Below, piece after piece: positions 1,212 to 28,875 of a stretch of DNA of 33,289 bases (position 1 is the first letter of the stretch; each line of letters starts with the position of its first letter). A model generated the notes under the pieces. It was not told where the DNA came from and searched no databases. It saw nothing but the letters and a program-made list of their open reading frames with translations. The stretch lies in the IMG/VR virus record IMGVR_UViG_3300047476_000359, positions 1 through 33,289 of that record. One strand, written 5' to 3'. The stretch comes from a virus. Position numbers and translations under genes: made by a program.

Positions 1212-1584
1212 TGTTATAATATTTTATGAATTCGATTACTGCGTTGTATGTTGCTTCTATTTTTGTATCTGCGTCGGTCTCAACAATTGTGTCGTCTGTA
1301 TTTTTATCTATAATCTCTACAAAAGATTGTTCTATATTGATATTGTACTTTGCACATCTATTGTTGTCTTCAAAACTCTCGATCTTATCAACTACCTTCA
1401 TCAACCAATTCCAATCTAAGTGAAATAGTAGGTAATCTTCTGCGTGCCAGTCTCCGTTTATATAATAGTATGTCTGTCCCCATACGTATTTGTTTTCTTC
1501 TAGTCTAGCTATTCCTTTGTTTATTTGTTTTTTAGGATATCCCATAAACTCAGCGATTAGTTTGTTGTTGTCTATTGTGCGCAT
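1201..1584 (-). CDS. Conserved hypothetical phage protein, 127 aa
   Basis: About 127 aa from the ATG at 1584 (MRTIDNNKLIAEFMGYP...); three further upstream codons are open, but this ATG overlaps the end of the preceding gene and fits the coupling seen in the operon. Recognisable pieces are NNKLIAEFMGYP at the start, DWNWLMKVVDKIE in the middle and KIEATYNAVIEFIKYYN at the end, a combination seen in many Bacteroidota phage proteins of unknown function. Soluble, mixed alpha/beta. Downstream stop overlaps the next start. Confidence 0.8.
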   Translation of the reverse strand: MRTIDNNKLIAEFMGYPKKQINKGIARLEENKYVWGQTYYYINGDWHAEDYLLFHLDWNWLMKVVDKIESFEDNNRCAKYNINIEQSFVEIIDKNTDDTIVETDADTKIEATYNAVIEFIKYYNNEN

Positions 1585-1844
1585 AGTTCCCAAGTGTTAA
1601 GTTGTTTTACATTTTGTCGCGTTAGCCCCAGTTCCTTTACGATAAACTTAGCTAGTTTTTTGTTGCCTATTGTACCCTCGTCTATTACGTTAGTGCCTAT
1701 GTAACTAGCCACGTACGATGGTGGTGTGTTTAGTACTCTATTACAAAACTTTACGTCTTGTCCTAGAAAGAATTGTTTTCTGTTGTACTCTAGTGTCCAG
1801 TTGCGACCAAATCCGTAGTCTCCTTGTGTGATAATTACTTTCAT
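1572..1844 (-). CDS. Hypothetical protein, 90 aa, first gene after the tRNA-like element
   Basis: 90 aa (MKVIITQGDYGFGRNWTLEY...), no membrane segment; family not recognised. Its ATG lies 24 nt after the 3' end of the tRNA-like element at 1869-1959, with the leader ...TTTAAATTAATTAATACA before the ATG and no Shine-Dalgarno site. If the tRNA-like RNA is cut out by host RNase P/Z, this gene would start a new message with a leader of almost the same length as those left by the hammerhead ribozymes at 2914 and 3818. It overlaps the next gene. Confidence 0.75.
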   Translation of the reverse strand: MKVIITQGDYGFGRNWTLEYNRKQFFLGQDVKFCNRVLNTPPSYVASYIGTNVIDEGTIGNKKLAKFIVKELGLTRQNVKQLNTWELCAQ

Positions 1845-1868
1845 TGTATTAATTAATTTAAAGTTAGT

Positions 1869-1959
1869 GAAGAGGACGGGACTCGAACCCGTATAGTGGA
1901 AGAATTACAGAATCATTATCTGTGTCATCTACTTGCTCTACCAATTGCGCCACCTCTTC
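1869..1959 (-). tRNA. tRNA-like gene with an elongated anticodon arm
   Basis: On the minus strand a 7-bp acceptor stem (GAAGAGG with CCTCTTC), a normal D arm (GCGCAATTGGTAGAGC) and a perfect T arm (ACGGG-TTCGAGT-CCCGT) are present. Between D arm and T arm there are about 42 nt instead of the usual 22. They fold as a longer arm: GTAGA/TCTTC with one mismatch at the base, then ACAGA/TCTGT closing a 7-nt loop TAATGAT. Read as an anticodon loop this gives ATG (His codons), but position 33 is A, not the near-invariant U. The 3' end continues ACTA, so CCA is not encoded. It is either a tRNA with an unusual insert or a tRNA-like processing signal between two genes; amino-acid identity is uncertain. 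Confidence 0.7.
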
Positions 1960-1964
1960 TTTAG

Positions 1965-2168
1965 CTACAGTATCTCGTAGCTTGTTATTACAAATTCCAA
2001 TGCTGATTCGCTTGGATTCTTCATTGCTTCTTCTATATCTTTTTCGCTTAGTCCGTAATAGAAAATGTCGTCATCGTTGTCTTCGTCATCGTACTCGCTA
2101 ACTAATGCGTCTATAATATCAGTACGGTCGTCCTTCCAATATCCGTTTATTCTAAAATATTTACTCAT
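1965..2168 (-). CDS. Conserved phage protein, acidic, 67 aa
   Basis: 67 aa starting MSKYFRINGYWKDD, followed by a run of Asp/Glu (residues 26-36) and IFYYGLSEKDIEEAMKN. The N-terminal MSKYFR.NGYWKDD and the YGLSE.DI motif recur in Bacteroidota phage proteins of unknown function. Soluble. Ends 5 nt before the tRNA-like element, so the two must share a transcript. Confidence 0.75.
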   Translation of the reverse strand: MSKYFRINGYWKDDRTDIIDALVSEYDDEDNDDDIFYYGLSEKDIEEAMKNPSESALEFVITSYEIL

Positions 2169-2191
2169 TGCTTAGTCTTTTAATTGTTATA

Positions 2192-2356
2192 TCATTTTGT
2201 TGACGTCAACGAAATGGTCTGAATAAAATCGTCCCAGTCGTTTATGCTTTCTATTTCGTGATAGGGTATCATATACTTTTCGTTACCTACGTAGTAGTTA
2301 TATTTTGCAAATCCTAGAGATAAGAGCTGGTTTAATCTATTGTCAAATTTACTCAT
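2192..2356 (-). CDS. Hypothetical protein, 54 aa
   Basis: 54 codons from the ATG at 2356 (MSKFDNRLNQLLSLGFAKYN...) to TGA at 2192. The ATGAGTAA start overlaps the stop of the upstream gene by 8 nt, as elsewhere in the operon. It has an amphipathic N-terminal helix and an aromatic centre (KYNYYV, KYMIPYHEIE). Family not recognised. Confidence 0.65.
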   Translation of the reverse strand: MSKFDNRLNQLLSLGFAKYNYYVGNEKYMIPYHEIESINDWDDFIQTISLTSTK

Positions 2357-2570
2357 TGCTTAGTCTTTCAATTGTTAGGTTGGTGCTTGTTATTATTTTC
2401 TTTAACGTGTCCTCGTGCTTCTCTTGGAACCAATCAGGCATGTCTACGATTACAAAGTGCTTGTTGACTATCGTGTGCTCGAATGAATTCGGTACGAAGA
2501 ATGGCTGACCACCATTATCGATAGTCAGCGCCTTGTTGCTTAGTTGTCTTGGGTATAGTTGTAGTGTCAT
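2349..2570 (-). CDS. Hypothetical protein, 73 aa
   Basis: 73 aa (MTLQLYPRQLSNKALTIDNG...), no membrane segment, no recognised domain. Its ATG overlaps the TGA of the preceding gene and its stop overlaps the next start, so translation is probably coupled with both neighbours. Function unknown. Confidence 0.7.
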   Translation of the reverse strand: MTLQLYPRQLSNKALTIDNGGQPFFVPNSFEHTIVNKHFVIVDMPDWFQEKHEDTLKKIITSTNLTIERLSNE

Positions 2571-2893
2571 TATCGTATAAAGTATTGGTTATCAAACTTG
2601 TATCTCTGTCCGTTGTAGTTCTGTGAGTACACTAGTAGGTCGAATTGGTCTGTACTAACCGCGATGCAGTTCTGTGTTAGTATCGTAGCTAACTCTTCAA
2701 TCTTTTTAATAAAGTGACTCGTTCTAGCGTAAGGACTTTCGATATGTGCTACTATTGTCGGCTCGTGCTCGTCTTCGTATCGTCCAATGGCAAACTTGTA
2801 CGTGTCGACCGCGTAGTCTTCTCTTAATTTGTTGATGATCGCGTTTTGGCTTAGTGGGTTGTTGTTTAATCCGATGTTTAAAATTGCTTTCAT
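2570..2893 (-). CDS. Hypothetical protein, 107 aa, behind hammerhead ribozyme 1
   Basis: 107 aa (MKAILNIGLNNNPLSQNAII...). The first 60 residues look like a compact alpha/beta fold (beta strand, helix over NAIINKLREDY, strand VDTYKFAIGRYED). This is a frequent unknown in Bacteroidota phages. The gene begins 26 nt after the predicted cleavage site of the hammerhead at 2914-2968, so its message should start with a 5'-hydroxyl and a short leader TTTAACAATCTAAATTAATT ending just before the ATG. Confidence 0.75.
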   Translation of the reverse strand: MKAILNIGLNNNPLSQNAIINKLREDYAVDTYKFAIGRYEDEHEPTIVAHIESPYARTSHFIKKIEELATILTQNCIAVSTDQFDLLVYSQNYNGQRYKFDNQYFIR

Positions 2894-2913
2894 GATATTA
2901 ATTAATTTAGATT

Positions 2914-2968
2914 GTTAAAGACATCCCGATCAGGGATGTTTCGACCATTCAGGTCTCGTCAGTTTAAC
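2914..2968 (-). ncRNA. Hammerhead ribozyme 1 (stem I open, type I)
   Basis: On the minus strand all core parts are in order: stem I strand GTTAAA, core CTGACGA (the seventh core position is the variable one), stem II GACC-TGAAT-GGTC, core GAAA, stem III CATCCC-TGATC-GGGATG with the conserved A15.1-U16.1 pair, cleavage triplet GUC, and stem I return TTTAAC. All three stems pair perfectly. Predicted cleavage is between the bases at 2920 and 2919. It lies between the 25-codon gene ending at 2971 and the gene starting at 2893. Confidence 0.92.
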
Positions 2969-2970
2969 TC

Positions 2971-3048
2971 TTACCAGTGCTTATAGGTCACGTTCTTTGC
3001 GTTACCAAATAGCCAGTAGCTTATTTTGTCGTAGATTTTTTTCGCCAT
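2971..3048 (-). CDS. Hypothetical microprotein, 25 aa
   Basis: A 25-codon frame, MAKKIYDKISYWLFGNAKNV..., basic at both ends with an amphipathic centre. It overlaps the previous gene and its stop codon lies 2 nt before the stem I strand of hammerhead 1. Too short for a homology statement; translation is inferred from the packing of the operon. Confidence 0.45.
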   Translation of the reverse strand: MAKKIYDKISYWLFGNAKNVTYKHW

Positions 3049-3185
3049 AATGATTTACCTTTTTTAAGTATGTAATTTGATTGGTGCTTGGTTAGGTTGT
3101 GGTGATTAGCCCAGTTAACTGAGCTAAGCCAATTGTTTACGTAGTCTAAATATAGACGCTCGATGTCGTTATTAGTTAACTGCAT
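3021..3185 (-). CDS. Hypothetical protein, 54 aa
   Basis: 54 codons (MQLTNNDIERLYLDYVNNWL...) with a helical, aromatic N-terminal half and a strongly basic end (KKGKSLWRKKSTTK). It overlaps both neighbours by a few codons. Phage small proteins of the form NDIE.LY.DYVNNW.......A.......A occur in other Bacteroidota phages, so I think the frame is real. Function unknown. Confidence 0.6.
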   Translation of the reverse strand: MQLTNNDIERLYLDYVNNWLSSVNWANHHNLTKHQSNYILKKGKSLWRKKSTTK

Positions 3186-3267
3186 AAGCTAATAAATTAA
3201 AGATTACTATTACTAATACGATTGTTACTTGTAGGTATAGTTCACCTTGTTTTTGTGATTTTGTCAT
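3172..3267 (-). CDS. Membrane microprotein, 31 aa
   Basis: 31 codons (MTKSQKQGELYLQVTIVLVI...): a polar N-terminus followed by one hydrophobic helix at residues 13-29. The start is preceded by the leader TTTAATTAATAACATC, the same A/T motif found before other genes of this operon. Likely a one-helix membrane peptide of unknown role. Confidence 0.5.
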   Translation of the reverse strand: MTKSQKQGELYLQVTIVLVIVIFNLLAYAVN

Positions 3268-3286
3268 GATGTTATTAATTAAATAT

Positions 3287-3400
3287 TTAGTGTTTATTTT
3301 TAAAATTTCTAATTATAGTATCTATTAAGCAAATTATAGTTATTGCTAAAAATAGATAACTAAACCCATTTAATATATTGATTAATTCTTTATCTGTCAT
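3287..3400 (-). CDS. Small membrane protein, 37 aa
   Basis: 37 codons (MTDKELINILNGFSYLFLAI...) with one hydrophobic segment at residues 13-31 and a basic tail (RNFKNKH). Positive-inside rule suggests the C-terminus is cytoplasmic. Located between the 47-aa acidic gene and the 31-aa membrane microprotein with short gaps. Function unknown. Confidence 0.5.
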   Translation of the reverse strand: MTDKELINILNGFSYLFLAITIICLIDTIIRNFKNKH

Positions 3401-3404
3401 AATT

Positions 3405-3548
3405 TTAATTATTAAAATCTGTTACTTCTATTGTGTGTTCATGCTCTGTGTAGTTAATAAAATACTCTATATCTTCCTCATTTATAATCTCATCTTTAAA
3501 TTCCCCAATCAATAGCATTAAATCTTTTAATGATAACTCTACTCTCAT
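3405..3548 (-). CDS. Hypothetical acidic protein, 47 aa
   Basis: 47 codons (MRVELSLKDLMLLIGEFKDE...), acidic, no membrane segment. ATG preceded by AAAAATTAATATT on the sense strand. The stop is 5 nt before the next start. No family recognised. Confidence 0.55.
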   Translation of the reverse strand: MRVELSLKDLMLLIGEFKDEIINEEDIEYFINYTEHEHTIEVTDFNN

Positions 3549-3552
3549 AATA

Positions 3553-3801
3553 TTAATTTTTAAAATCCTCCCAACTTAAACACATTCTATCTGATAAATG
3601 TTTTTCAAATTCTTGTTGTGTTATTAGAGAAGATAAGATTGCTAATTTGTTTTCGTACTCCCGATTTTTTTGTTGTAATTTTTCTACCTTATCTTTATTT
3701 TTGCTCCAATTATCGCCATAACAAGGTAGTTTATCAATTGCTTTGTAAATCTTACTTTGAGCATCTAAAATTCTATTGTATTTTCTAGTGGCTGCTTTCA
3801 T
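3553..3801 (-). CDS. Hypothetical coiled-coil protein, 82 aa, behind hammerhead ribozyme 2
   Basis: 82 aa, strongly helical and lysine-rich (MKAATRKYNRILDAQSKIYK...). Residues 37-60 (DKVEKLQQKNREYENKLAIL) form heptad-like repeats, so a dimeric coiled coil is likely. The ATG sits 22 nt after the predicted cleavage site of hammerhead 2, with the leader TTAATTAATTAAA-like A/T sequence just before it. Function unknown. Confidence 0.7.
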   Translation of the reverse strand: MKAATRKYNRILDAQSKIYKAIDKLPCYGDNWSKNKDKVEKLQQKNREYENKLAILSSLITQQEFEKHLSDRMCLSWEDFKN

Positions 3802-3817
3802 TTTAATTAATTAAATT

Positions 3818-3868
3818 GGTTAAGACGGGCAGTGCCCGTTTCGATCATTTAGATCTCATCAGTTAACC
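3818..3868 (-). ncRNA. Hammerhead ribozyme 2 (stem I open, type I)
   Basis: Minus strand: stem I GGTTAA, core CTGATGA, stem II GATC-TAAAT-GATC, core GAAA, stem III CGGGC-ACT-GCCCG with A15.1-U16.1, cleavage triplet GUC, stem I return TTAACC. Every helix pairs without mismatch and every core base fits the hammerhead consensus. Predicted cleavage is between 3824 and 3823. The core CTGATGA contains the TGA stop codon of the upstream gene. Confidence 0.94.
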
Positions 3869-4077
3869 TTATACTTTATAATTCCATTCCATTCAGGATG
3901 TTTAAATAGTTCAGGACAGAAATAACAATCAAATCCTTCATCTTCTAATTTATCAATAAAAGAATCATAAAGACTATCGTCTAATTTATAAACCGTTCCT
4001 TTATCATAAATCACAACTTCATTGTTGTCTTCTAATGACGTGTTCCAATCTCCATTTACATAAATTTCTACTAACAT
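3859..4077 (-). CDS. Hypothetical protein, 72 aa, first gene of the minus-strand operon
   Basis: 72 aa from the ATG at 4077 (MLVEIYVNGDWNTSLEDNNE...). The longer frame begins inside hammerhead 3 and is not likely to be used. Acidic, with FDCYFCPELF holding two cysteines. Its final codons GTT AAC TGA form the 5' stem I strand and part of the catalytic core of hammerhead 2, so coding and ribozyme sequence overlap. No family recognised. Confidence 0.7.
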   Translation of the reverse strand: MLVEIYVNGDWNTSLEDNNEVVIYDKGTVYKLDDSLYDSFIDKLEDEGFDCYFCPELFKHPEWNGIIKYKVN

Positions 4078-4090
4078 AATAATTAAGTTT

Positions 4091-4146
4091 AAACGTTTCG
4101 TCGTTCTGCGACTCATCAGTATGGATACCACATCCATATACGTTTT
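4091..4146 (-). ncRNA. Hammerhead ribozyme 3 (stem III open, type III)
   Basis: Minus strand in a different permutation: stem III strand AAACG, cleavage triplet GUA, stem I hairpin TATGGAT-GTGGT-ATCCATA (7 bp), core CTGATGA, stem II GTCG-CAGAA-CGAC, core GAAA, stem III return CGTTT. Predicted cleavage is between 4139 and 4138. Unlike the other two, the cut leaves the ribozyme on the downstream RNA, whose start codon at 4077 is 13 nt after stem III. Confidence 0.9.
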
Positions 4147-4148
4147 AT

Positions 4149-4629
4149 TTTCCTAGAACCGATATTCACATACCGCGTCCCGCTCGATAAGGTTTTTAAA
4201 CCCTCTTGCACACACATACTACCTATTCGGGTTCGTGGTATGGTTGCGGGACTCTACACCCAGACTGCCATACACAGCCATTCAATTCATTTGAACACCG
4301 CAAACATATGGCGACAATTTCAATGTACCAAATAAAAATTAAAAAAAGTTTTGTTTTTAGTGCATTTTTATCATATTCGCAATGATTTGATATCTTTGAT
4401 GAGAATAATGCAATGAATTGGACCTGATATTGAGGATTATTCAATGAATCTGAACGAAGTTTGGATATGTTGTTGATTATCAGTGTTTTACGGATTGTAT
4501 TTGCTTACTATCGGATTTGTGTGGGATGGGATTGGGCGGTGGCTATTTCAAGTCTCTATGTATCTGGACGTATAAACCAATTCACGCAATACATTTCCAT
4601 GACGCGGGAAGTCCCGTAAACACTAGGAT
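4149..4629. other. Non-coding control region of divergent operons, left part
   Basis: No credible gene is seen here. The one longer frame (4223-4444, minus) has no initiation context and odd composition. The stretch contains the minus-strand promoter candidate at 4301-4308 and a short hairpin CGGGA-AG-TCCCG at 4605-4616 with no partner sequences around it. The leader RNA of the minus operon would run from about 4295 to the hammerhead at 4146, roughly 150 nt, and is rich in small inverted repeats. Confidence 0.6.
4301..4308 (-). promoter_or_regulatory. Candidate -7 promoter box of the minus-strand operon
   Basis: Minus strand TATGTTTG fits the Bacteroidota sigma-ABfr -7 consensus TAnnTTTG. 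A TTG (TTTGG) occurs about 19-24 nt further upstream and may be the -33 element. It is the only good match on this strand between hammerhead 3 and the divergent plus-strand gene. Start site inferred near 4295. Confidence 0.45.
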
Positions 4630-6108: not shown

Positions 6109-6271
6109 TGACCGAGTGGCGGAACGTTAGTGATTTTGCTAACGATGGTTAGACGCTAAATGAGAGACGAAAGTGGTCGCTACAAAGTTAAGGGAACTTG
6201 AAGTAGACGCTGGAAAATTTAAAAAAGCATTGCCTTAACAGTGCATACAGGTTCGAATCCTGTCTCGGTCA
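6109..6271 (+). tRNA. tRNA-like domain with long internal insert
   Basis: TGACCGAG (6109-6116) pairs with CTCGGTCA (6264-6271), and between them lies a textbook T arm ACAGG-TTCGAAT-CCTGT (6247-6263). Before it GCATTG-CCTTAA-CAGTGC (6227-6244) forms a long variable arm as in Leu/Ser/Tyr tRNAs. After the acceptor come TG and GCGGAA, then a hairpin CGTTAG-TGATTTTG-CTAACG, then TGGTTAGACGC, which would complete a D arm. A further hairpin set CTAC-AAGTT/AACTT-GTAG stands where the anticodon arm should be. The total of 163 nt is far too long for a tRNA and no anticodon can be assigned. No CCA follows exactly (ACAG). Confidence 0.5.
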
Positions 6272-27023: not shown

Positions 27024-27722
27024 ATGATAGGTATATATAAAATAACATCTCCTTCAGGTAAGGTATATGTCGGACAGAGTGTTAATATAGAAAATAGAAT
27101 TAAAAAATACGCAAGTTGTAGTTGTAAATTACAAGTAAGGTTATATAGTTCTATTAAAAAATACGGATGGGATAACCATGTTTTTGAAGTTATAGAAGAA
27201 TGCGATAAAGATCAATTAAACCAAAAGGAAAGATATTGGCAAGATAGATATGAATGTATAGGTAAAAAGGGATTGAATTGTCTTTTAACAAACTCTAACG
27301 ATTCAAGAAAAGTTATATCTGATGAAATGAAGGCCAGAATTTCTAATTCAGTAAAAGGATTTAAGCATACTGAAGAGGCTATACAAAAAATAAAGAAAGG
27401 ATTGATAGGTAGACCTGTATCAATACAGACAAGACTTAAAATATCAGAAAGTAATAAAGGAACTGTGTTTTCTAAAGAAAGAAGAGATAAAATATCAAAA
27501 GCTTTAACTGGAAGAAAATTATCTAAGGAGTGTTTATTAAAGAGAAGTAAAAGCATTTCTGGAGAAAAAAACTATAAAGCTAAAATAATTTTAAACACAC
27601 AAACCGGAATATACTATGGATGCATAGCTGATGCAGCTAAAGCTCACAACATGATTAGGTCTACCCTTAATAATTATTTAACAGGGCATAGACCTAATAA
27701 AACAAGCATGATTTATGCCTAG
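27024..27722 (+). CDS. GIY-YIG/NUMOD3/NUMOD1 homing endonuclease after portal
   Basis: 232 aa. MIGIYKITSPSGKVYVGQS is a perfect GIY...YVG start, with the catalytic Arg region RIKKY and Glu in NQKERYWQDRYE. NUMOD3 repeats follow (SDEMKARISNSVKGFKHTEE, TRLKISESNKGTVFSKERRD). The C-terminus (NTQTGIYYGCIADAAKAHNM..STLNNYLTG) is a NUMOD1-type DNA-binding helix-turn-helix. It has its own promoter and very low GC. Probably mobile between phages; the recognition site should lie in or near the portal or scaffold gene of relatives lacking it. Confidence 0.93.
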   Translation: MIGIYKITSPSGKVYVGQSVNIENRIKKYASCSCKLQVRLYSSIKKYGWDNHVFEVIEECDKDQLNQKERYWQDRYECIGKKGLNCLLTNSNDSRKVISDEMKARISNSVKGFKHTEEAIQKIKKGLIGRPVSIQTRLKISESNKGTVFSKERRDKISKALTGRKLSKECLLKRSKSISGEKNYKAKIILNTQTGIYYGCIADAAKAHNMIRSTLNNYLTGHRPNKTSMIYA

Positions 27723-27744
27723 ATAGTATAAAATTATAATTAAG

Positions 27745-27752
27745 TAACTTTG
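27745..27752 (+). promoter_or_regulatory. TAnnTTTG promoter ahead of scaffold and capsid genes
   Basis: TAACTTTG, 16 nt before the ATG at 27769. This should drive high expression of the scaffold-like gene and mcp up to the terminator at 30311. Confidence 0.75.
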
Positions 27753-27768
27753 CAAAAAATTAAATCAA

Positions 27769-28875
27769 ATGGAAAACACTTTCACTGTAAGGGACCTAGG
27801 TGTCGCCGAACAAAAATCAGTACAGGAAGTTGAACAAGAGTTATTGGCTAAGCATGAAGAGAGTATTGCAGAACCATCTCAAGTAGAAGTTCAACAAGAA
27901 CCTGAAGTAGAAGTAGAATTACCAGCTGAGCCGACAAGGGCAGAGCTAGAAGATAACGACGTTCTTTCATATATTAAAAACAGATACGGAAAGGAAGTAA
28001 ACTCTATTAATGATCTTATCGCGGAGAGAGAAGAGAAGAAAGAGGATTTACCAGAAGATGTAGCTGCGTATTTTAAATACAAAAAAGAAACAGGTAGAGG
28101 AATAGAAGATTTTGTTAAATTAAACAGGAACTTTGACGACATGAGTCCTGATGATTTATTAGTTGAGTACTATTCTCAAACAGAAGAGGACTTAGACAGA
28201 GATGATATTCAATATATGATCGAGGATAAGTTTTCATACGACGAGGAGTTTGATGACCCTAAGGACATCAAGAAAAAGGAAATAGCTAAGAAAAAAGAGC
28301 TTGCTAAAGCTAAAAAGTTTTTTGATGAGTACAAGGAAACATACAAGACGCCTCTTGAGTCAAAAGGTGGTCTAGTTTCTGAAGACGAAAAAGAAGCTTA
28401 TGAGGCTTACAAGAAATATGTTCAAGAATCCAGTAGTCAACAGGAGGAGAGTCTAAGAAAGTCTCAATACTTTCAAAAGAAAACTGAAGAACTTTTTTCT
28501 GATGAATTCAAAGGTTTTGATTTCAATGTAGGAGATAAGACAATTAAGTTTTTACCGGGAGATGTTACAGAGACAAAGAGAGCTCAGTCAGATGTGGTTA
28601 ATTTCATATCTAAGTATTTAGATTCTGACGGGTTAATTTCAGATCATGTTGGTTACCATCGTTCATTAGCCGCGGCAATGAATCCAGAAAAGATGGCCAA
28701 GTTCTTTTACGAACAAGGTAGAGCAGAGGCGTTATTAGATAACACTAAGAAAATTAAGAATATTGATATGGAGATGAGAAGCGCTCCGCAATCAATTGCT
28801 CAGTCTGGGTTTAAAGTAGTAGCTTCTGATAGCGATAGCGGAAGAGGACTAAGAATAAAAAGTAATAAAAAATAA
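27769..28875 (+). CDS. Acidic scaffold-like protein between portal and capsid, 368 aa
   Basis: 368 aa, rich in Glu, Asp and Lys. An extended acidic N-terminal part (VEQELLAKHEESIAEPSQVE) precedes helical coiled-coil segments (KDIKKKEIAKKKELAKAKKF, KKYVQESSSQQEESLRKSQY), and the end (ARAIKSNKK-like RGLRIKSNKK) is basic. Between portal and major capsid genes such a protein is normally the scaffold that shapes the procapsid. No protease motif seen. The C-terminal 60 residues (AAAMNPEKMAKFFYEQGRAE) are recurrent in this position in Bacteroidota phages. Confidence 0.75.
   Translation: MENTFTVRDLGVAEQKSVQEVEQELLAKHEESIAEPSQVEVQQEPEVEVELPAEPTRAELEDNDVLSYIKNRYGKEVNSINDLIAEREEKKEDLPEDVAAYFKYKKETGRGIEDFVKLNRNFDDMSPDDLLVEYYSQTEEDLDRDDIQYMIEDKFSYDEEFDDPKDIKKKEIAKKKELAKAKKFFDEYKETYKTPLESKGGLVSEDEKEAYEAYKKYVQESSSQQEESLRKSQYFQKKTEELFSDEFKGFDFNVGDKTIKFLPGDVTETKRAQSDVVNFISKYLDSDGLISDHVGYHRSLAAAMNPEKMAKFFYEQGRAEALLDNTKKIKNIDMEMRSAPQSIAQSGFKVVASDSDSGRGLRIKSNKK

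Follow-up and report, generated by a model that had tools for sequence, protein, structure and literature searches.

Organization of the early operon

We analyzed the full-length IMG/VR virus record IMGVR_UViG_3300047476_000359 (33,289 nucleotides (nt), in the following called the window) with respect to the RNA elements which lie between the genes of its early operon. The terminase, portal and GroEL sequences of the window match phage families. Since the relatives by terminase are phages of Flavobacterium, Cellulophaga, Tenacibaculum and Maribacter, the host very probably belongs to the Flavobacteriia; a megablast comparison of the window with named phages gave no match. The operon runs on the minus strand from about position 4331 to position 1, is termed early on account of its layout and consists of small genes, mostly of unknown function. 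The operon contains four RNA elements on its coding strand: one type III and two type I hammerhead ribozymes and one tRNA-like element. The IMG/VR relatives keep this layout with covarying helices but carry different genes. In the direction of transcription the features, including the relevant open reading frames (ORFs), are as follows.

4301..4331, minus strand: putative Bacteroidota-type promoter TTG-N20-TATGTTTG (TTGGTACATTGAAATTGTCGCCATATGTTTG), proposed from position and conservation
4140..4294, minus strand: structured-looking leader RNA between the putative promoter and the type III ribozyme
4090..4146, minus strand: type III hammerhead ahead of the first gene, predicted cut after 4139
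3859..4077, minus strand: first early ORF, 72 aa, whose UGA stop codon coincides with the UGA within the CUGA core of the following ribozyme
3818..3868, minus strand: type I hammerhead, predicted cut after 3824 (GUC), 22 nt upstream of ATG 3801
3553..3801, minus strand: 82-aa ORF, 3′ of the first type I ribozyme
3048-2971, minus strand: 25-aa ORF, stop codon 2 nt before the type I ribozyme 2968-2914
2914..2968, minus strand: type I hammerhead, predicted cut after 2920 (GUC), 26 nt upstream of ATG 2893
2570..2893, minus strand: 107-aa ORF, 3′ of the second type I ribozyme, phrog_11722, unknown function
1868..1959, minus strand: tRNA-like element with acceptor, D-like and T arms and no usable anticodon loop, candidate substrate of RNase P and RNase Z
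1845..1867, minus strand: leader CTAACTTTAAATTAATTAATACA between the tRNA-like element and ATG 1844
1572..1844, minus strand: 90-aa ORF, 3′ of the tRNA-like element, unknown function

A first-pass annotation made from the sequence had placed the type I copies and the tRNA-like element 26, 22 and 24 nt before start codons. We confirmed these elements and found 26, 22 and 23 nt, the last distance being 24 nt when counted from the last acceptor pair. The same annotation spoke of three unrelated kinds of junction; there are two kinds, a hammerhead and a tRNA-like version, as two of the junctions are both of type I. The type III hammerhead, which it did not name, is the fourth element of the operon.

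The hammerheads are genuine

Both type I copies of the window read CUGA(C/U)GAG...CGAAAC...GUC and thus have the core CUGANGA...GAAA and a NUH triplet at the cut. The type III copy likewise has the core, three helices, an opening at helix III and NUH at the cut. The minimum free energy (MFE) fold of all three ribozymes is a three-way junction, and the fold z-scores of the type I copies are -3.7 (3868-3818) and -2.7 (2968-2914). The Rfam scores stay below the gathering score, which is an annotation threshold and not a structural criterion: 25.4 bits (Hammerhead_1, E 0.006) versus 34 for 3868-3818 and 28.1 versus 56.3 bits for 2968-2914, and 45.7 bits (Hammerhead_3, E 6.6e-8) versus 48.5 for the type III copy. 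We therefore made independent pairing tests. For type I, viral contigs were scanned with a pattern restricted to the core and loop II, which requires no pairing, and 152 distinct core matches, near relatives of the window phage included, were evaluated among those listed. Helix II is fully paired in 148 of these 152 listed matches, compared to 16% with shuffled partners, and a 6-bp helix I together with helix III closes in 93% of them, compared to 8% with mismatched flanks. Several pair types occur at every paired position of the listed matches, and the cleavage triplet among them is GUC in 113 of 137 cases and GUA in 13. In contrast, only 27 of 120 matches of the type I pattern in bacterial genomes are fully paired in helix II; these bacterial matches are mostly due to chance. 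The type I elements are thus genuine three-helix hammerheads open at helix I and not chance occurrences.

With the Rfam gathering thresholds no ribozyme was annotated in 11 relatives and in other loci, including L127 with its five copies, and the number of hammerheads in phages is therefore probably underestimated. Our descriptor search found no hammerhead in the stretches analyzed of MW202828, phi38:1, Panino, phi46:3 and Gundel_1. In L134 (4219-4310) a second core follows directly 3′ of a type I hammerhead and could pair as a type III ribozyme sharing its strand, possibly a pair of alternative folds.

Placement between stop and start codons

The position of the cut relative to the next gene was determined for 169 distinct type I ribozymes, the target being an ATG which opens at least 30 codons. 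As the descriptor used accepted GAAC as core end, many type III copies were missed, with little effect on the type I counts. The distance from cut to ATG has a median of 25 nt with quartiles at 22 and 33 nt. Of the 169 cuts, 76% lie 15-40 nt before an ATG compared to 16% of random points on the same strand. The upstream ORF likewise ends in few registers, its stop codon usually abutting or overlapping the 5′ part of the ribozyme. At the junction of the window copy 3868-3818 a type I hammerhead is also present in L025.

The 5.8-kb contig L206 (JAAGZR010000219.1) has nine type I copies within about 4 kb; eight precede an ATG by 20-24 nt and the ninth by 34 nt. The contig is binned as Aliivibrio and its start leaders are A/T-rich, which suggests a phage contig of other origin.

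The tRNA-like element

The element at 1959-1868 matches the Rfam tRNA family with 39.8 bits, and ARAGORN finds no proper anticodon in it. It has a 7-bp acceptor stem, a 5-bp T stem and a 7-nt T loop; an anticodon arm with a 7-nt loop and U33 is not formed, and for this reason it is classified as tRNA-like. The cloverleaf of L012 has a 7-bp arm with a 6-nt loop. In all seven near relatives a tRNA-like element is found at the same junction and distance. Its first twelve nucleotides, the acceptor stem and the T arm are preserved, the window and the relatives differing by two compensatory T-stem pairs, while the body is replaced in six of the seven and identical in the seventh, so that the total length in the relatives is 72-171 nt. 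Conserved ends around a variable body would be expected if selection maintains a processing signal and not decoding, and the element may be processed by RNase P or RNase Z.

A different tRNA-like element precedes another gene by 19 nt in L157 and is absent from the orthologous junction of L152. At this site, upstream of position 197 (minus strand), L152 has a terminator-like GC hairpin with a run of eight T behind it, and a conserved pseudoknot-like RNA lies ahead of the hairpin. Whole tRNAs occur at such places in the cultured Callevirus phages phi38:1 and Calle_1: two identical tRNA-Glu copies, apart from the tRNA cluster, each stand 19-20 nt before an early gene.

28605-28676 and 30575-30646 of L287 (NC_021796): tRNA-Glu junction copies of Cellulophaga phage phi38:1, conserved in Calle_1

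In Calle_1 annotated genes begin inside the tRNA-Glu copies. A second tRNA-like element of the window (6110-6271, plus strand, 162 nt including a D-region hairpin) has the sequence GACCGAG...CTCGGTC and the T arm ACAGGTTCGAATCCTGT; the versions of the relatives measure 84, 103 and 123 nt, and no start codon lies near the window copy. In Maribacter phage Panino (L288, PP540027) the annotated tmRNA at 27557-27889 is doubtful because it overlaps two annotated tRNAs.

The start of the operon

The Bacteroidota promoter consensus is TTG-N20-TATGTTTG. The putative promoter of the window lies 161 nt upstream of the type III cut; its sequence is identical in L002 and L003 and present as a variant in L004, and the TATGTTTG box is also found in L009, L146, L147, L150 and L152. 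Five further matches to the promoter pattern exist in the window (both strands, 66.6 kb), and the support for the promoter therefore consists of its position and conservation. The leader RNA between promoter and ribozyme is roughly 108-211 nt long in the relatives and belongs to at least three sequence families. No Rfam family was matched by it, and its fold energy in the window (4140..4294) is ordinary, the MFE z-score being not significant. The leader appears modular in the window (4294-4140, minus strand) and in L002, L003, L004, L146, L147, L150 and L156, with a possible pseudoknot and a GNRA hairpin; as judged by eye, this hairpin and other helices covary between the window, L004, L150 and L156.

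Type III hammerheads were detected in 19 stretches, and this type stands consistently before the first gene in the operons examined. In 16 distinct copies GUA is kept at the cut, helices I and II covary, and the spacing from GAAA to ATG is 15-18 nt. The cultured Flavobacterium phages elemoB, D and E also have a type III copy, with a spacing of 19 nt.

Leader motif, gain and loss

The leaders of the three downstream junctions resemble each other, and the first-pass annotation had taken this as a result of RNA processing. This reading did not hold. The TTAATTAAT leader motif is also present at gene 3267, which is preceded by a AAATTAATTAAT-type motif although there is no RNA element, and at a ribozyme-less junction of L004: gene 2893 follows a type I ribozyme in the window, none lies directly before its orthologue in L003-L008, and L004 nevertheless retains the same AAATTAATTAATC leader. 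In the near relatives nearly all starts with the TTAATTA motif are unoverlapped by the preceding gene, with or without an RNA element, and overlapped starts are almost always without it. Because the motif occurs at junctions without RNA elements, we rejected it as a processing mark; the shared leader is probably a translation-start signal.

Conversely, gene 3267, without ribozyme in the window, has one in four relatives; in c47281 the ribozyme before the orthologue was identified by the descriptor, being masked in the junction table by a longer ORF call. The idea that the elements are interchangeable is borne out as far as their presence or absence at given junctions goes, but among the phages compared no gene was found whose hammerhead is replaced by a tRNA-like element in another phage. 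Seven IMG/VR relatives encode the 107-aa product (2570..2893) with 88-96% identity, an eighth with 58% and the elemo phages with 35%.

A model for processing of the early RNA

From the elements, their covariation, their positions and their gain and loss, all of which can be read in the sequences, we infer cleavage during infection, processing of the tRNA-like element and a benefit to the phage. The early operon RNA is probably cut at RNA-encoded sites into separately usable messages. The first-pass annotation had proposed such a split; cut sites between the genes and a layout kept in the relatives agree with it, the cleavage itself being deduced from sequence. One long early RNA would start at the promoter near 4331 and be cut at the RNA-encoded sites. 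The type III cut after 4139 would detach the first gene from a leader RNA of about 150 nt, and the mRNA of this gene would then start with a 5′-OH and the helix of the ribozyme. Type I ribozymes, each on or at the stop codon of the upstream gene, would cut at a distance of 20-26 nt from the next start, with the folded core remaining attached to the upstream mRNA as its 3′ end and a short open leader, just enough for ribosome binding, left on the downstream mRNA. At the tRNA-like element an equivalent cut could be made by host RNase P and/or RNase Z, enzymes which mainly read the acceptor/T-arm half, the half which is conserved here. The likely outcome would be uncoupled translation, defined and protected ends and a separate stability for each gene or small group of genes.

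Several points weigh against this model. The tRNA-like junctions of the near relatives represent one orthologous event, and independent cases are few. Some catalogued ribozyme matches have no ATG nearby or lie at far distances from one, and independent starts without ribozyme can also stand about 20 nt after the previous stop codon. Compact packing can explain a short leader, and ribosomes terminating at a stop codon inside the ribozyme could impede its folding.

The alternatives overlap with the proposed model and are not mutually exclusive. The elements may be active at junctions where 20-26 nt is simply the shortest workable ribosome-binding leader, so that cutting has no leader-shaping role. 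The leader motif and length seen without RNA elements at gene 3267 and at the gene 2893 orthologues of L003-L008 fit well, as do the overlapping junctions, mostly devoid of the motif, and the phages using Shine-Dalgarno sequences, in which the cut lies at a median of 17.5 nt upstream of that sequence. The conserved catalytic cores and helices, and ribozymes at so many junctions as in L206, are left unexplained, and we regard this explanation as quite possible but short of an even chance. Alternatively, the chief role might be protection of the upstream message by a folded 3′ end with a 2′,3′-cyclic phosphate, the downstream message being a by-product. The whole type I core indeed stays on the upstream RNA, over its stop codon, but no gene is annotated between the promoter and the type III ribozyme, and the downstream spacing is narrow too, which makes protection as the chief role somewhat unlikely. 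The type III and tRNA-like elements could also mainly trim the 3′ ends of preceding structured leader RNAs, given the leaders of roughly 108-211 nt before type III and, in several relatives, a noncoding stretch of up to about 290 nt (element included) before the tRNA-like gene. The tRNA-like element of the window, however, lies only a few nucleotides from the preceding ORF, and no such RNA exists at the type I junctions; as a main function, release of noncoding RNAs appears doubtful.

Two further explanations carry little weight. Hammerhead cleavage leaves 5′-OH and 2′,3′-cyclic phosphate ends. This chemistry suits RtcB, which is encoded by the relative phi38:1 and could join the ends from two flanking ribozymes into circular mRNAs. 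RtcB is found in 0 of 22 ribozyme-bearing phage records, though many of these are fragments and a host enzyme could serve, and circular products were sought and not seen by Perreault et al. (2011; PMC3088659), so circularization is highly improbable. Hardly more probable is the view that the elements are selfish or relics of no use to the phage: their gain and loss at orthologous junctions would suit it, but strong covariation, an invariant core and a fixed register beside unrelated genes in many phages do not.

The proposed processing of the early RNA could be extended, as a tentative generalization which we put forward with some doubt, to a cis-acting punctuation of phage operons. Any module cutting about 20-26 nt before a start would serve and could come and go as a cassette inserted between the stop codon and the start leader; the modules would be the type I hammerhead, the non-decoding tRNA-like element and, in Callevirus, the whole duplicated tRNA, while type III would open the operon and free a leader noncoding RNA.

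Comparison with known systems

In mitochondria tRNAs are excised between genes and free the next mRNA. The window shares with this punctuation the tRNA-shaped RNA between genes; it differs in that there is one such junction, with a tRNA-like element without usable anticodon, mixed with ribozymes and being a candidate cleavage site. The nearest precedent discussed here contradicts the statement of the first-pass annotation that no phage operon of this kind has been described. In the text of Perreault et al. (2011; PMC3088659), clustered prophage hammerheads flank genes, long phage RNAs were proposed to be cut into operon- or gene-length mRNAs, and cleavage of such phage hammerheads was demonstrated in vitro and, for one example, in E. 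coli. As in the window, several hammerheads per phage gene cluster flank one or few genes. The same text gives one distance, 13 nt from a halovirus hammerhead to the start of a helicase gene, and, in the part available, no general cut-to-start register, no order with type III first and type I later and no tRNA-like junction. Because clustered hammerheads, the processing proposal and cleavage were described there, the earlier claim of novelty was too strong.

Theta (HDV-like) ribozymes adjoin phage tRNAs, in some cases in phages of Bacteroidota, and were proposed to trim tRNA 3′ trailers (PMC10879173). Self-cleaving ribozymes are combined with tRNAs in phages there too, but that system trims tRNAs, whereas the hammerheads and the non-decoding tRNA-like element of the window precede protein genes. 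The synthetic ribozyme insulator RiboJ raises downstream gene expression (PMC6206723); it also places a self-cleaving ribozyme 5′ of a ribosome-binding site and leaves a hairpin at the 5′ end, as type III would, whereas the type I copies of the window leave no hairpin on the downstream RNA. According to a review, RNase P cleaves the phage M3 and C4 RNAs, which are not tRNAs, and polycistronic mRNAs (PMC11143913). The part available does not mention any conserved tRNA-like element located about 23 nt upstream of a start codon in a phage.

An open-access literature search, which is weak evidence of absence, found no description of the register over the upstream stop codon and about 25 nt before the start, of the type III-first/type I-later order or of the tRNA-like junction. 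The fixed register, the division between type III and type I and the tRNA-like junction thus appear to be new. A 2017 review lists the role of hammerheads in prokaryotes as an open question (PMC6155905). A fixed site between stop codon and start leader across many phages gives this question the form of a concrete, testable claim. Cultured relatives are available in the Flavobacterium elemo phages (type III) and the Cellulophaga phages phi38:1 and Calle (tRNA-Glu junctions).

Within the window a near-identical direct repeat of 31 nt (2159-2189 and 2347-2377) covers the start regions of two adjacent genes, both beginning with MSK, and looks like a duplicated gene start.

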